A DNA stretch of 33,526 nt, taken from positions 1 to 33,526 of the IMG/VR virus record IMGVR_UViG_3300044533_000637; one strand, 5' to 3'. Shown here in pieces: positions 15,344-22,186 of the stretch. Positions within the stretch are counted from its first letter, which is position 1, and each line of letters starts with the position of its first letter. Below the pieces are notes generated by a model that was not told the DNA's origin, did no database searches, and worked only from the letters and a program-made list of their open reading frames with translations. Source of the DNA: a virus. A program made the translations under genes and the position numbers.

Positions 15344-15378
15344 TTAGTCATTATCCATTAATTGTTAATTCCTTAATA

Positions 15379-15402
15379 CGGAAATAATGGTATCTTATAT
15401 GA
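15379..15402 (+). promoter_or_regulatory. 24 bp promoter-like motif, copy 1
   Basis: The motif is CGGAAA, then four variable bases (TAAT here), then GGGTATCTTATATGA or a one-base variant (TGGTATCTTATATGA here). It recurs at 16124 and 16988 with 20 of 24 positions invariant. It lies 37 bases before the first early gene. Just after its TATAT comes a 7 bp hairpin, ATGATAA (15399-15405) with TTATCAT (15416-15422), as often found at stable mRNA 5' ends. No sigma70 -35 box is spaced correctly. The length resembles single-subunit polymerase promoters, but a host or alternative-sigma promoter is also possible. Confidence 0.65.
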
Positions 15403-15438
15403 TAATCAATATCGGTTATCATAACTAAGGAGTATACT

Positions 15439-16091: not shown

Positions 16092-16118
16092 AGGGATGGT
16101 CTTCGGACTGTCCCTTTT
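16092..16118 (+). terminator. Intrinsic terminator with UUCG loop
   Basis: AGGGATGGTC (16092-16101) pairs over 10 positions, two of them G-U, with GACTGTCCCT (16106-16115) around a TTCG tetraloop, followed by TTT. It closes the first early unit and lies only 5 bases upstream of promoter motif copy 2. Confidence 0.9.
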
Positions 16119-16123
16119 AAACG

Positions 16124-16147
16124 CGGAAAAAGGGGTATCTTATATGA
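16124..16147 (+). promoter_or_regulatory. 24 bp promoter-like motif, copy 2
   Basis: CGGAAA at 16124-16129, then five less constrained bases (AAGGG), then GGTATCTTATATGA, matching copies 1 and 3. It stands between a strong terminator and the next gene, exactly where a promoter is needed. It runs into a hairpin, TGAAGTAC (16145-16152) with GTACCTCA (16159-16166), which has one mismatch. Confidence 0.7.
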
Positions 16148-16194
16148 AGTACAATAAGGTACCTCAATTCAATTAATCCAAGAGGAGAAAAATT

Positions 16195-16425
16195 ATGTTT
16201 AGTTTACTTGATTCACAATTTGCTAGTGTAGGTAGCAATTATGATATATTCACAGAAGAATATATGGAAGCGTTATATCATATCTATTATGGCGACGAAG
16301 AAGAGTCTCACACCTTCTTGGATCATCGTTTGAATGGTAAACAAAAATCTGAACCAGCGTCTGAGTTCAAAGACGTAAAAACAATACAGATTCCATTTGA
16401 GGAGGAGTTTGAAGGCTATTGGTAA
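16195..16425 (+). CDS. Acidic early protein, unknown
   Basis: A 76-residue, strongly acidic protein with acidic and aromatic patches (EEYMEALYHIYYGDEEES; EEEFEGYW at the end). ATG 16195 follows CCAAGAGGA at 16178-16186, a leader shared by five genes in the window. It is the first gene of the second early unit. Its mRNA 3' side runs into a pseudoknot and a hammerhead ribozyme, so after ribozyme cleavage this gene would lie on its own short RNA. No family recognised. Confidence 0.7.
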   Translation: MFSLLDSQFASVGSNYDIFTEEYMEALYHIYYGDEEESHTFLDHRLNGKQKSEPASEFKDVKTIQIPFEEEFEGYW

Positions 16426-16434
16426 CAGCCGCAT

Positions 16435-16462
16435 AGACCTGAGTAGGTCTTTAAACTGCTCG
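16435..16462 (+). ncRNA. H-type RNA pseudoknot, copy 1
   Basis: Stem 1 pairs AGACC (16435-16439) with GGUCU (16446-16450). The loop bases GAGUA (16441-16445) pair with UGCUC (16457-16461), plus a possible U440-G462 wobble. The crossing loops are 1 and 6 nt long (U, and UUAAAC), the geometry of the T-even gene 32 pseudoknot. A second copy at 22140 keeps stem 2 and the loop but has a different stem 1 that still pairs, which supports the fold. It abuts the hammerhead ribozyme. Confidence 0.7.
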
Positions 16463-16516
16463 AGTTGTATATGGATGTGTTATCCATACTGATGAGACTA
16501 TAAAGTCGAAACAACT
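16463..16516 (+). ncRNA. Type III hammerhead ribozyme
   Basis: All core elements are present and in order. Stem III pairs AGUUGU (16463-16468) with ACAACU (16511-16516). The cleavage triplet GUA ends at 16469. Stem I pairs UAUGGAU (16470-16476) with AUCCAUA (16482-16488) around GUGUU. The core CUGAUGA is at 16489-16495. Stem II pairs GACU (16496-16499) with AGUC (16504-16507) around AUAA. Core GAA is at 16508-16510 and A16511 is the 15.1 base pairing with U16468. Predicted cleavage lies between 16469 and 16470. It sits 25 bases before the next start, so it would separate the transcripts of the genes at 16195 and 16542. Confidence 0.92.
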
Positions 16517-16541
16517 TAACAATTCCAAGAGGAAATTTACA

Positions 16542-16823
16542 ATGAAAAACAAATTAAATAAACTAGCTTTAATACATCAATTAAACACTTTCTGGGTGTT
16601 TGAGAGAAATGGAATGGGAGGTGTACCTTCTTTTGATTTCACCAATAAAGCAGCCGGAATTAATCTTTGGCATATTTGGGGAGATAAAGTTGGTCTAATG
16701 CTCATTGAAACAAAGGAAGTATTTGAAATTAACCTAGAATGGGATGAGATTTCCGAATCCTATGGGCTTGGAGATTGGGATATTCCAAGATTAAATTCTC
16801 TTTTAGAAGGAGAAGCAGCATGA
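16542..16823 (+). CDS. Early protein downstream of the hammerhead, unknown
   Basis: A 93-residue acidic protein rich in Trp (FWVFERNGMGG; LWHIWGDKVG; GDWDIPRL). ATG 16542 follows CCAAGAGGA at 16525-16533. The ribosome site begins 9 bases after the hammerhead ends, so the mRNA after cleavage would start with two ribozyme stems and then this gene. No membrane segment and no known motif recognised. It is coupled to the next gene by an ATGA-type overlap. Confidence 0.7.
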   Translation: MKNKLNKLALIHQLNTFWVFERNGMGGVPSFDFTNKAAGINLWHIWGDKVGLMLIETKEVFEINLEWDEISESYGLGDWDIPRLNSLLEGEAA

Positions 16824-16984
16824 ATTACTATTTATTAGCTTACGGAATACTATGGGCAGCTGCAGGGCTGGCCTGGGTGTTCTACCTTATTACTCTAGAA
16901 GACATACGTATTACTAGGGAAAATAAGCTGGCGAAAAAACGCCAGAAACATGGTCTAAAAATTACCCAATTAGACTATAAATAA
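16820..16984 (+). CDS. Small single-pass membrane protein
   Basis: A 54-residue protein: a hydrophobic helix at residues 5-25 (LLAYGILWAAAGLAWVFYLI), then a basic tail (RENKLAKKRQKHG). ATG 16820 overlaps the upstream stop, with AAGGAG at 16807-16812 as ribosome site. A longer in-frame start at 16775 lies inside the previous gene and is less likely. Unknown function; an inner-membrane protein with a cytoplasmic tail is likely. Confidence 0.65.
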   Translation: MNYYLLAYGILWAAAGLAWVFYLITLEDIRITRENKLAKKRQKHGLKITQLDYK

Positions 16985-16987
16985 TTG

Positions 16988-17011
16988 CGGAAAATAGGGT
17001 ATCTTATATGA
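16988..17011 (+). promoter_or_regulatory. 24 bp promoter-like motif, copy 3
   Basis: CGGAAA at 16988-16993, then five less constrained bases (ATAGG), then GGTATCTTATATGA. It lies 3 bases after the stop of the previous gene and 26 bases before the gene at 17038. Unlike copies 1 and 2 it is not followed by an evident hairpin, and no terminator precedes it. Confidence 0.65.
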
Positions 17012-17037
17012 AAACAACCACCACAGAGGAAACTCAA

Positions 17038-18842: not shown

Positions 18843-18958
18843 TTGGAAAAACTATGGTATTAATTTTTGTTGCCATATTGGTTCCTAGATATCTCTTAAA
18901 TGCTAAACAGATAGATCACATTCGAAATAAGAAGATAAGGGTTGAATATGCGAAATAG
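18839..18958 (+). CDS. Tiny membrane protein overlapping RNA polymerase start
   Basis: A 39-residue protein: MIGKTMVLIFVAILVPRYLL forms one membrane helix, followed by a basic tail (NKKIRVEYAK). ATG 18839 overlaps the preceding stop, with GAAAGAGG at 18825-18832 as a possible ribosome site. It overlaps the RNA polymerase start by 11 bases, suggesting coupled translation. Function unknown. Confidence 0.5.
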   Translation: MIGKTMVLIFVAILVPRYLLNAKQIDHIRNKKIRVEYAK

Positions 18959-21167
18959 ATTAAAACAATCGTTAACACGTAGAGTGCAACTTGAAATTGC
19001 ACCACAAAGCCCTTTAAAATTTCTTAAAGAATTAAGTATCGATAATATATTAGATACAATAATATCTAATGTGTATTTATATACACGACCTAAAAGAGGT
19101 GCAGTAAATAAACAAATACTAATGGTGGAAGTGATTAGTATTATTGGGCATTCAGTAAGGAAAGGATTAAAGAAAGATTCATCTGTTGCGGCTAAGACTG
19201 GTGCATTCATATTATATTCATTTGAAGAGCTTGGAATGCTTAGAGCAATACTCGGTTCTGCTGGTAATGGTCATGCAACATATATTGTAGAAGTTTTAGA
19301 TGATGCAACAATACAATTACTATGGGAAGGTGTAAGCAGAGAAGGTGCCAAAGGTAAATTACCTTCAGTAACACCATATGAACCTTATACAGAATTCAAA
19401 CACCCTACTGGACAAGTATTAGTCAAGACGGGTAATAAAGATGTTCCAACAAAATTAACACCTGCAACACATCCTATAGTATTTGATTCAGTAAATAAAA
19501 GCTTAAATACGGGTTGGCAAATAAACAAAGAAGTTTATAATGTTTCTAAATGGGCATTGAATAACCATACTGATGCATTTAGTGATATATGGGAGCAGCA
19601 AAATCCTCAAGCTAAGACTACTAAATTAAGGGAAACAAAAGCTATTCTATCTATAGCAGATAAGTTCATGGATACTGTATTTTACCATATGTACTATCTT
19701 GACTTCCGTGGAAGGAAATATCCAACAACGGCATATCTCCATGAACAATCTAGTGATATTGCTAAAGGTCTTTTAATGCGTCAAGATAAGAAAGTAATTG
19801 GTGAAGAGGGTTTCTTTTGGCTATGTGTATCTATCGCCAGTAACTGGGCAGGTTCATCAGGACGTGAAGATGGTGCAAAGACGGATAAGATCAATCTCAA
19901 AGACCGATATCAGTGGGTATTAGACAATCAAGAGATTTTATTATCATATGCAGAAAGTCCAAAAGTAAATCAAGGATGGATGTCAGGAGATAAGCCATGG
20001 CAATTCTTAAGTGCATGTATTGAGTTAAGAAATGCTTTAAAATTGGGACCAAGATATTTAGAGTATGAGTCACATGTTGAATGTTTTATTGACGGATCAA
20101 CGAACGGCTCACAACATTTATCTGCATTAACAAGAGATGAAATAACAGCTCCATATGTTAATTTAATTCCATTAGAACTTCCAGGTGATTTATATGCATA
20201 TGTTGCCGAACATGTATGGAATAAAATATCTAATGACATAGCAAGAATGCCAGCGGATTTAATCTTTCAATGTGAAGATTTTATAGATGGTTTAATTAAA
20301 TTAAAGAAAAAGATTACTGCATCCGAACCTAAGTCTGAAATTAGGAATCAACTAGTAGCTCAAATTAAAGCCTATAAACAACAATGGGCTGATATTGGCT
20401 CTGTTGCAGCGCCTGTATTTTGGAATCGTATAAAGGATTTGAAACAAAGAAGGAAGATAGTTAAAAGAAACACTATGACTCTTCCCTATGGAGGTAGCAG
20501 CTATGGATTGGGAGAGCAACAAATCCTTGATGCAAAAAAGCATGGAATAGACTTGCTACTTCATATGGAGCATAAATGGGGAGCTTGGCTGGGCAGACTA
20601 GTATTTGAAGATTGTAAAGCTTCATTAGAGAAGCCGATGAGACTGTTAAATATATTTGAGAATGCCGGAAGAAGCTGTGAGAAAATTGAAGAATTTTTAT
20701 CATGGAATGTTCCAATAGTAAACTTTCCTGTGGTACAAAATTATACAGAAGGTAAAGTTAAAAAGATTTATGTACAGTATGGGCCACCAGTTGGCCCACG
20801 TAAATCTACAGGTTATTATGAAAACACTTTTCAATTAGCAATATGTTTTATTGAAGATGTGGTTCCTAGTAAAGGTAAACAGTCTCAGGGAGCAGCACCT
20901 AACGTTATTCATAGTTTAGATGCAGCGCACTTAGCACTTACTACACATCGTTGTGATTTTACAATTACAACAATTCATGACAGCTATGGTTGTTTATTTG
21001 CTGACATGCCAAATCTCTTTAGAATAGTTCGCGAGACATTTGTAGAACTTTATAAAGATAATCCATTGTTTCCAATAATGGATAATATTGACGGAGATCT
21101 TACTTATCTTGAGATGGGTGATCTTGATATTAATTTAATTCTAGAAAGCGAATACGCTTTCGCATAG
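18948..21167 (+). CDS. T7-like single-subunit DNA-dependent RNA polymerase
   Basis: A 739-residue enzyme that would transcribe phage genes from its own promoters. ATG 18948 is chosen because AAGG at 18937-18940 is well spaced; the frame begins at a TTG at 18942. Conserved elements match T7 RNA polymerase: YLDFRGRKYP (residues 250-259), catalytic DGSTNG with Asp382, KRNTMTLPYG with Lys506 and Tyr514, IHSLDAAHL (654-662), catalytic HDSYG with Asp678, and a C-terminal YAFA matching T7's FAFA foot. It is 144 residues shorter than T7 (883), mainly in the N-terminal domain. The specificity loop before APNVIH (about 630-648) also looks 7-10 residues shorter, so its promoters may differ from T7's. 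It stands behind a strong terminator at 18664-18708 without an obvious promoter between. Confidence 0.97.
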   Translation: MRNRLKQSLTRRVQLEIAPQSPLKFLKELSIDNILDTIISNVYLYTRPKRGAVNKQILMVEVISIIGHSVRKGLKKDSSVAAKTGAFILYSFEELGMLRAILGSAGNGHATYIVEVLDDATIQLLWEGVSREGAKGKLPSVTPYEPYTEFKHPTGQVLVKTGNKDVPTKLTPATHPIVFDSVNKSLNTGWQINKEVYNVSKWALNNHTDAFSDIWEQQNPQAKTTKLRETKAILSIADKFMDTVFYHMYYLDFRGRKYPTTAYLHEQSSDIAKGLLMRQDKKVIGEEGFFWLCVSIASNWAGSSGREDGAKTDKINLKDRYQWVLDNQEILLSYAESPKVNQGWMSGDKPWQFLSACIELRNALKLGPRYLEYESHVECFIDGSTNGSQHLSALTRDEITAPYVNLIPLELPGDLYAYVAEHVWNKISNDIARMPADLIFQCEDFIDGLIKLKKKITASEPKSEIRNQLVAQIKAYKQQWADIGSVAAPVFWNRIKDLKQRRKIVKRNTMTLPYGGSSYGLGEQQILDAKKHGIDLLLHMEHKWGAWLGRLVFEDCKASLEKPMRLLNIFENAGRSCEKIEEFLSWNVPIVNFPVVQNYTEGKVKKIYVQYGPPVGPRKSTGYYENTFQLAICFIEDVVPSKGKQSQGAAPNVIHSLDAAHLALTTHRCDFTITTIHDSYGCLFADMPNLFRIVRETFVELYKDNPLFPIMDNIDGDLTYLEMGDLDINLILESEYAFA

Positions 21168-21460: not shown

Positions 21461-21660
21461 GTAATGTAGTAGGGTTAACACAACCAAAGAAGAAACACGA
21501 AGTAAAGATACTAAACATTGCTGTTGGCCATAAAGCTGACTACTCTGAATTACAAGCATTAATGGAATCTGAATATGAATTAACAGATGTAATTACAACA
21601 GGTGGTACAGAAGGTTACCACGGATCTTACACAATTTTTATCTTACAAAAATGGGGTTAA
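21457..21660 (+). CDS. Small hypothetical protein
   Basis: A 67-residue protein whose ATG overlaps the previous stop (ATGA at 21457-21460). It has an alpha/beta pattern (KHEVKILNIAVGHKADYSEL; then LMESEYELTDVITTGG; ending YTIFILQKWG) that resembles small DUF-type single-domain proteins ending in a hydrophobic strand. No membrane helix or catalytic motif. Function unknown. Confidence 0.65.
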   Translation: MSNVVGLTQPKKKHEVKILNIAVGHKADYSELQALMESEYELTDVITTGGTEGYHGSYTIFILQKWG

Positions 21661-21661
21661 T

Positions 21662-22132
21662 ATGTTTATTTCAAAAGTAGAATCATTTCACAAAATCACT
21701 TCAATTTCACGTGGCTGTTCAGCTATTTCACGCGCATCAGGGGCATTGGGTAATGATGGTCTTGTATCCATTCTTATAGAAAATCTAAAAGCTGAATTAG
21801 CAGCAACACGATTACCTAAGAAACACAATATCAATTCAGAAGATTTACAAAAGATTAATCTGTTTATTACAGCAGAAATCTGGAGAATCTTAGATGATAG
21901 TCCTTTTGTAAAGAATAGAACCTGCGAAGACGTAGGTGTTGCATTTGGAGCAAGCTATAGTGTAACTGATGAATGTAAAACTTCTCAGTTTGTAATTGAA
22001 ATTGATGGTAAAGAGAAACACATCAATGTAAATGTACGTGTAGCATTTCCTAATGGTAAATACACGTCATGGTCTTTAAATAAATTAATGTCAGCAACGC
22101 ATTTAGATTTCATATCTCAATACTGGGATTAA
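21662..22132 (+). CDS. Hypothetical protein
   Basis: A 156-residue soluble protein starting at ATG 21662, preceded by GGGG at 21654-21657 and one base after the previous stop. The N-terminal half is helical (LVSILIENLKAELAATRL); the C-terminal half looks beta-rich (FVIEIDGKEKHINVNVRVAF). I recognise no family. A pseudoknot (22140-22167) follows its stop. Confidence 0.65.
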   Translation: MFISKVESFHKITSISRGCSAISRASGALGNDGLVSILIENLKAELAATRLPKKHNINSEDLQKINLFITAEIWRILDDSPFVKNRTCEDVGVAFGASYSVTDECKTSQFVIEIDGKEKHINVNVRVAFPNGKYTSWSLNKLMSATHLDFISQYWD

Positions 22133-22139
22133 TTAGTTT

Positions 22140-22167
22140 AAGCCTGAGTATGCTTCAAAACTGCTCA
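22140..22167 (+). ncRNA. H-type RNA pseudoknot, copy 2, before the lysin gene
   Basis: Stem 1 pairs AAGC (22140-22143) with GCUU (22152-22155). The loop UGAGUA (22145-22150) pairs with UGCUCA (22162-22167), and the 6 nt crossing loop is CAAAAC. Stem 2 and the AAAC loop end match copy 1 (16435), while stem 1 differs but still pairs. It ends 11 bases before the Shine-Dalgarno site (GGAGGAAA) of the cell wall hydrolase gene, so it could control its translation or protect an RNA end. Confidence 0.65.
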
Positions 22168-22186
22168 AAACAAAATGGAGGAAAGT

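Follow-up and report, generated by a model that had tools for sequence, protein, structure and literature searches.

The window, the whole 33.5-kb stretch of DNA analysed here (one IMG/VR virus record), derives from an uncultured tailed phage with tape measure, distal tail and fibre genes. The phage also encodes a PhoH-like protein, a family A DNA polymerase, a primase-helicase, an exonuclease, a ribonucleotide reductase and, at 18942-21167, a single-subunit T7-like RNA polymerase; judged by polymerase, the nearest isolate is Bacteriophage DSS3_VP1, at 35% identity. Upstream of the RNA polymerase gene, amid short genes without family matches, two plus-strand genes are separated by a gap at 16426-16541: the gene before it encodes 76 amino acids (16195-16425, stop codon TAA at 16423-16425) and the gene behind it 93 amino acids (16542-16823), again without a family match for either. 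A Shine-Dalgarno-like AAGAGG on the plus strand (16528-16533) stands ahead of the start codon at 16542. The rest of the gap is largely taken up by two RNA structures encoded on the same strand, a pseudoknot (16435-16462) and a type III hammerhead ribozyme (16463-16516).

The operon context is suggested by a plus-strand direct repeat, TAAACGCGGAAAAAGGGGTATCTTATATGAA, at 16118-16148, a putative promoter. The repeat has the form (A/G)CGGAAA...GGTATCTTATATGA, most copies then carrying AGTACAATAAGGTACCTCAA, and is present three times in the window (15373-15403, 16118-16148 and 16982-17012); nine relatives also keep it ahead of blocks of small genes. All three copies are probably phage promoters, and the copy at 16118 is the probable start of the transcript that bears the RNA element. 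Together with the position of the short genes before the T7-like RNA polymerase gene, these repeats make it plausible that the element belongs to an early operon.

The hammerhead has an open stem III and loop-closed stems I and II; its fold and covariation give the helix order of a type III ribozyme. Stem III pairs AGUUGU (16463-16468) with ACAACU (16511-16516) over 6 bp, including the U16.1-A15.1 pair (A16511-U16468), and could be extended by a wobble pair, G16462.U16517. The cleavage triplet is GUA (G16467, U16468, A16469), with A16469 as H17, and cleavage is predicted between 16469 and 16470; relatives have GUA or GUC, so that H17 is not G. Stem I pairs UAUGGAU (16470-16476) with AUCCAUA (16482-16488) over 7 bp around a loop at 16477-16481, and stem-loop I as a whole (16470-16488), which shows compensatory changes in two relatives (L010 and L018), is the predicted 5' end of the downstream mRNA, where a 5'-OH would be expected. 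The core strand CUGAUGA (positions 3-9) lies at 16489-16495 and is kept in relatives, and the second core strand, GAA, at 16508-16510; between them stem II pairs GACU (16496-16499) with AGUC (16504-16507), 4 bp closed by the loop AUAA. Energy minimisation of the 54-mer returns this hammerhead, the sole difference being a weak additional pair that closes loop I, and the fold is retained within a 120-nt context. Loops I and II are candidates for a tertiary contact; a loop I sequence, GAUGUGU, facing an A-rich loop II recurs in the window, L019, L022, L027 and the cultured Flavobacterium phage elemoA_7-9A.

The first-pass annotation of this sequence had proposed a scan with the Rfam covariance models, which bears it out in part. 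The match to RF00008 is significant (27.7 bits, E 0.0016, in a 1-kb search; 30.8 bits, E 1.7e-6, in a search of the whole record), but it lies below the curated cut-off of 48.5 bits, and for this reason a scan of the window at the gathering threshold returned no match; the gathering cut-off reflects curation and is no trait of the ribozyme. A family-derived model, which includes the window sequence itself, scores the element at 73.4 bits, against 15.3 bits at the next best place in the window. A descriptor of the architecture, looser than the element, matched twice in 8.3 Mb of shuffled sequence; this count and the covariation in relatives rule out a chance occurrence. A coding explanation was also rejected: the element lies inside the 116-nt gap, into which only a single ORF, of 31 codons, extends.

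BLAST of the region against named phages gave no matches, and relatives were therefore traced through the RNA polymerase and the 93-amino-acid protein. The RNA polymerase is common to nineteen loci (59-100% identity), and the 93-amino-acid protein has homologues in three (L021, L022 and L023); L022 also holds a homologue of the 76-amino-acid gene, with the ribozyme element there too. Genes on the metagenomic contigs were called as simple ORFs. A hammerhead model (R1) built from 15 hammerheads matched the window, the nearly identical L003, L004, L016, L010/L018/L074, L015, L019 (two sites), L022 (two sites) and other phages. Copies outside the model were also recovered: a second copy in L027 (E 2.2e-6), L032 (E 1.6e-5), L118 (E 1e-9) and phage elemoA_7-9A (R1 E 2.6e-15; RF00008 E 1.5e-6), in which the hammerhead, at 19083-19139 of MT497017, directly precedes a run of short genes. 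The same R1 search found no hammerhead in L005, L006, L009 and L012, whose RNA polymerases are 92-98% identical to that of the window phage; with such close relatives lacking it, the hammerhead is dispensable. A general hammerhead pattern scan gave 49 contig stretches, many of them coding coincidences without stem III, and only those confirmed by the model were used.

Across 19 distinct copies, 88% of the alignment cells are paired and 12 of the 17 pairs have changes on both sides. The covariation score is 0.374, against at most 0.080 for slid structures, and none of 500 shuffles reached it; compensatory changes are present in all three stems. The core is constant in relatives save for the unconserved N7 position, an extra U in L010 and L018, and a second copy in L027 that has degenerated. 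As judged from its sequence, the element satisfies all the structural criteria applied for a type III hammerhead: it is almost certainly a genuine member of the family, and very probably active in the cell. From the letters alone, the first-pass annotation had read a complete type III hammerhead at 16463-16516, with stems of 6, 7 and 4 bp, all the invariant bases and a site at 16469/16470, in a gap of 116 bases. Each of these details is correct, the core bases do not vary freely in relatives, and the identification is now backed by an independent Rfam match and strong covariation; the upstream pseudoknot, which lies outside the coordinates then given, had been missed.

Several copies in relatives depart from this arrangement. 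In the hammerheads of L010 (1349-1405) and L018 (6199-6255), which have a GUC site, one more U separates CUGAUGA from a perfect stem II of 4 bp, a core insertion that may affect activity. The second hammerhead of L027 has the core CUGAAGA and a mismatched first pair in stem II. In a second group of contigs (L033, L060, L062 and L068), near-identical type III hammerheads stand just before a start codon, without a pseudoknot and downstream of small zinc-finger- or HNH-like genes. The T7-like RNA polymerase gene is itself split by ~0.7-0.8 kb in eight relatives (L009, L010, L011, L013, L015, L017, L018 and L019), at more than one site; the insert of L009 encodes a homing-endonuclease-like (HNH) ORF, and that of L017 matches an Rfam group I intron (1876-2106).

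When the hammerhead sites were aligned, another stretch, immediately 5' of the ribozyme, proved to be conserved as well. In the window this is an H-type pseudoknot of 28 nt (16435-16462), 9 nt after the stop codon. Its first helix, S1, pairs AGAC (16435-16438) with GUCU (16447-16450), plus C16439-G16446; in the second, S2, the loop bases UGAGUA (16440-16445) pair with UGCUCG (16457-16462). Double changes preserve both helices: AAGC/GCUU or AAUC/GAUU in S1, and UAAGCA/UGCUUA (L027) or UAGACA/UGUCUG (L019) in S2. In 13 pseudoknot sequences 99.2% of the cells are paired; in 31 diverse sequences, again with double changes in both helices, the figure is 95.8%, against at most 38.1% when the structure is slid, and the covariation score is 0.498 against at most 0.132. 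The covariance model R2 comprises these 31 sequences, the window among them, and scores the window pseudoknot at 40.8 bits (E 8e-10). A plain terminator hairpin was rejected as the conserved structure: the 6-bp AGACCU/AGGUCU helix of the energy fold is not conserved, and L027 and L019 keep S1 and S2.

The two structures are closely, if not invariably, associated. Of the 9 distinct hammerhead sites in the phage group, 8 have the pseudoknot; the exception is the second hammerhead of L022 (5470-5524), which lacks it and runs over the stop codon of the ORF before it. The pseudoknot also precedes the hammerheads of L027/L063 and of L118, phages only distantly related to that of the window (for L027, the DNA polymerase is 29% and the primase-helicase 34% identical). 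The genes around the module vary among genomes and the module itself is kept. In L027/L063 four pseudoknots are spread along a run of short genes, two of them followed by hammerheads, which flank a gene of 224 amino acids. Hammerheads without a pseudoknot (L022 at 5470, L033, L034, L060 and elemoA_7-9A) and pseudoknots without a hammerhead both occur, which makes the two modules separable. One of the latter lies in the window itself, on the plus strand at 22140-22167 (22138-22169 as matched by R2), where it begins 7 nt behind the stop codon that ends the gene at 21602-22132; it is outside the R2 set and scores 37.9 bits (E 5e-9). R2 found at least one pseudoknot in each relative of the group that was searched, including those without a hammerhead.

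Beyond this group the pseudoknot is widespread. A pattern that fixed S2 and the loop bases and left S1 almost free matched at least 120 stretches of viral contigs, where ~7 would be expected by chance on our own estimate, and a further 27 pseudoknot stretches were found in bacterial assemblies. S1, although unspecified, forms 3 bp or more in 151 of 152 pattern occurrences among the matches listed. The third S1 pair is GC in 78, AU in 40, CG in 39 and UA in 13 of the copies listed, Watson-Crick in all 170 against a shuffled mean of 56; these 170 copies were prefiltered for an S1 of at least 3 bp, and 151/152 is accordingly the unbiased figure. By the annotation of their genomes, the pseudoknot is intergenic in phages of Arthrobacter, Mycobacterium, Nostoc, Synechococcus and Paracoccus, and likewise in an unassigned gut phage and in the crAss-like phage cr7_1. 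High-E matches from short-query BLAST searches (for example in Staphylococcus and Vibrio phages), many of them inside annotated genes, were not counted. The copies in bacterial assemblies include those of metagenome-assembled genomes (L236-L262, among them L253, the Ignavibacteria chromosome CP054675), and one complete chromosome has two, ~3 kb apart. Rfam 15 (4227 families) has no match on the pseudoknot loci, with nothing there at relaxed thresholds; its matches in the loci scanned are to tRNA, a group I intron and permuted tmRNA only. No description of the pseudoknot was found in the open-access literature (preprints were outside the scope), which is weak evidence of novelty.

The placement of the pseudoknot is defined by the preceding stop codon. 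A stop codon is found in the 200 nt before 164 of the 170 copies listed. The distance from it to the pseudoknot is at least 4 nt throughout and 4-10 nt in 74 of the 164; typically it is 5-9 nt, with a peak at 5. In the Synechococcus phage S-EIVl, 5 of the 6 best copies begin 5-11 nt past an annotated stop codon. What follows the pseudoknot is more varied. A U-run (at least 4 U in 12 nt) stands behind 41 of the 170 listed copies, against 6 in a control stretch, and at least 5 U stand behind 24 listed copies, against 3 in the control. A tRNA gene starts 5-15 nt downstream of 15 listed copies, and the phages Amigo and NMeng1 show the same arrangement. The groups with such neighbours overlap little, and 112 of the 170 listed copies have no hammerhead, tRNA or U-run close behind them. 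In cr7_1 (L273, ~557-588) a permuted tmRNA has the pseudoknot in its spacer, directly before the coding part, with a compensated S2 (UAGGCA/UGCCUA).

The arrangement in the gap suggests a two-part RNA module, with a pseudoknot behind the upstream stop codon and then a type III hammerhead. The hammerhead would fold as the polycistronic transcript is made and cut itself between 16469 and 16470, and from the geometry it follows that such a cut would separate the mRNA of the 16195 gene from that of the 16542 gene; both the cutting during infection and its timing are inferred from the sequence. Stem III starts immediately after the last base of the pseudoknot, and the upstream mRNA would therefore end in the pseudoknot and a tail of ~7 nt bearing a 2',3'-cyclic phosphate. 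The downstream mRNA would begin with a 5'-OH on stem-loop I and carry its own ribosome-binding site, the cut thus uncoupling the fates of two small genes from one transcript. The pseudoknot should hinder RNase R and RNase II, leaving the upstream 3' end poorly attacked by exonucleases; PNPase needs 3'-OH ends (PMC3014915), and the cyclic phosphate would therefore add protection. Whether the transcript ends by U-run termination, by RNase P processing at a tRNA or tmRNA or by hammerhead cleavage, an RNA 3' end would come to lie within ~15 nt of the pseudoknot, right behind the terminating ribosome. The two-part module is, as a whole, the likely explanation; best supported within it is the view that the pseudoknot protects the upstream mRNA 3' end, made in this phage group by the hammerhead. 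Counting against this reading are the 112 listed pseudoknots with no such neighbour, the separability of the two structures, the absence of the hammerhead from close relatives, the tight start-codon spacing in S-EIVl and the RF00008 score below the curated cut-off. As to the parts, mRNA processing is a reasonably probable role for the hammerhead, and the pseudoknot may be a 3'-end cap, a suggestion to which we give slightly less than an even chance. More tentative still is the general proposal that the widespread pseudoknot forms protected mRNA 3' ends in phages of unrelated bacteria, with the hammerhead, RNase P (at tRNA or permuted tmRNA) and U-run termination as interchangeable makers of those ends; if this is true, phage hammerheads would gain their first concrete job.

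Other readings give the two structures different or unrelated tasks. The pseudoknot could be an independent cis-regulator of the downstream gene, a protein site or small-molecule sensor that merely shares the gap with a hammerhead that cuts. Many pseudoknots do have a stop codon on one side and a ribosome-binding site on the other. A precedent is the pseudoknot of T4 gene 32, known to act as a translational operator in that phage (PMC3014915). In S-EIVl, too, the start codon that follows the pseudoknot keeps within a narrow range of distances from it (18-26 nt), as would befit an effect on downstream translation. However, it is the upstream stop codon that fixes the spacing (a peak at 5-9 nt and none below 4 among the copies listed), the downstream genes are unrelated, and dozens of pseudoknots are followed by tRNA genes, U-runs or hammerheads. 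The hammerhead, moreover, would sever the pseudoknot from its supposed target, which ties the pseudoknot to the upstream mRNA and argues against a leader-type regulator; the reading is unlikely, if still a serious one. Intrinsic termination at the pseudoknot, with the hammerhead processing read-through transcripts or trimming the 3' end, would account for the enrichment of U-runs in 41 of the 170 listed copies against 6 in the control. Yet about three-quarters of the copies have no U-run, that of the window among them, the stems are short and unlike classical GC-rich terminators, and genes in the same direction and tRNAs follow within a few nucleotides, all of which makes a terminator quite unlikely.

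A distance of 5-9 nt from the stop codon also matches the spacing of known stimulatory pseudoknots, as expected of a recoding signal for stop readthrough or frameshifting. The reading frames behind the stop codon are soon closed, however, another stop coming after a median of 7, 5 and 3 codons in frames 0, -1 and +1, respectively; the stops are mostly UAA, expected to be poor for readthrough, and tRNAs and hammerheads follow. With no open extension past the stop, a recoding pseudoknot was rejected and is scarcely credible. The hammerhead-like sequence might finally be a functionless relic or a mobile insertion, as its patchiness among close relatives and its weakened copies (the extra U in L010 and L018, a 3-bp stem II in L016, CUGAAGA and a mismatch in the second copy of L027) could suggest. 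Compensatory changes in all three stems are not expected of a relic, though, and the element has no ORF of its own and immediately follows the pseudoknot at all but one of the group's 9 distinct sites; a relic or insertion is thus highly improbable here. The preferred reading remains that of a hammerhead-made, pseudoknot-protected 3' end.

The significance of the locus lies in a hammerhead tied at a fixed register to a second conserved RNA structure, one that marks gene ends in many phages. The result is a testable claim, namely that the ribozyme makes a defined and protected mRNA 3' end. The pseudoknot, if confirmed as new, would be a small, widespread RNA family open to study in cultured phages such as Amigo of Arthrobacter, Labelle of Mycobacterium and S-EIVl of Synechococcus, and it might serve as a compact stabiliser for expression constructs.

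Among known systems, the closest structural counterparts are the type III hammerheads of RF00008, from plant satellite RNAs and some prokaryotic genomes. The core CUGANGA/GAA, the GUA triplet, the stem order with an open stem III, the conserved stem I loop GAUGUGU and a short A-rich stem II loop are common to both. Unlike these, the element described here scores below the curated cut-off, is a single intergenic copy in a tailed DNA phage in contrast with rolling-circle RNA, and is coupled to a pseudoknot. Other pseudoknot RNAs of phage or phage-like DNA include the gene 32 leader pseudoknot of T4 and T2 and the STAXI motif. The former acts in a 5' leader and the latter is a tandem array, and to our knowledge neither occurs 5-9 nt after stop codons.

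The HDV-like theta ribozymes found by phage tRNAs (Kienbeck et al. 2024, PMC10879173) have also been proposed as protein-free makers of RNA ends. They have an HDV-like fold and act in tRNA 3' processing, whereas the present pseudoknot has a different fold and, where tRNAs are near, stands on their 5' side; they are an analogous but unrelated case. For hammerheads, cutting of phage transcripts into gene-length mRNAs was already proposed by Perreault et al. 2011 (PMC3088659), and the view of the first-pass annotation that such use in an early operon looks less described is too strong. In that study, prophage hammerheads cleave in vitro and in E. coli, and they likewise lie between phage genes, sometimes two around one gene, as here in L019 and L027. 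The cases it describes are mostly prophages near integrases, whereas those reported here belong to phages with T7-like RNA polymerase and replication genes; the conserved upstream pseudoknot is not mentioned in the accessible text of that study. A 2017 review still listed the roles of prokaryotic hammerheads as an open question (PMC6155905). The intergenic phage hammerhead is thus already known, and what is new is its fixed coupling to a conserved pseudoknot that is apparently undescribed.
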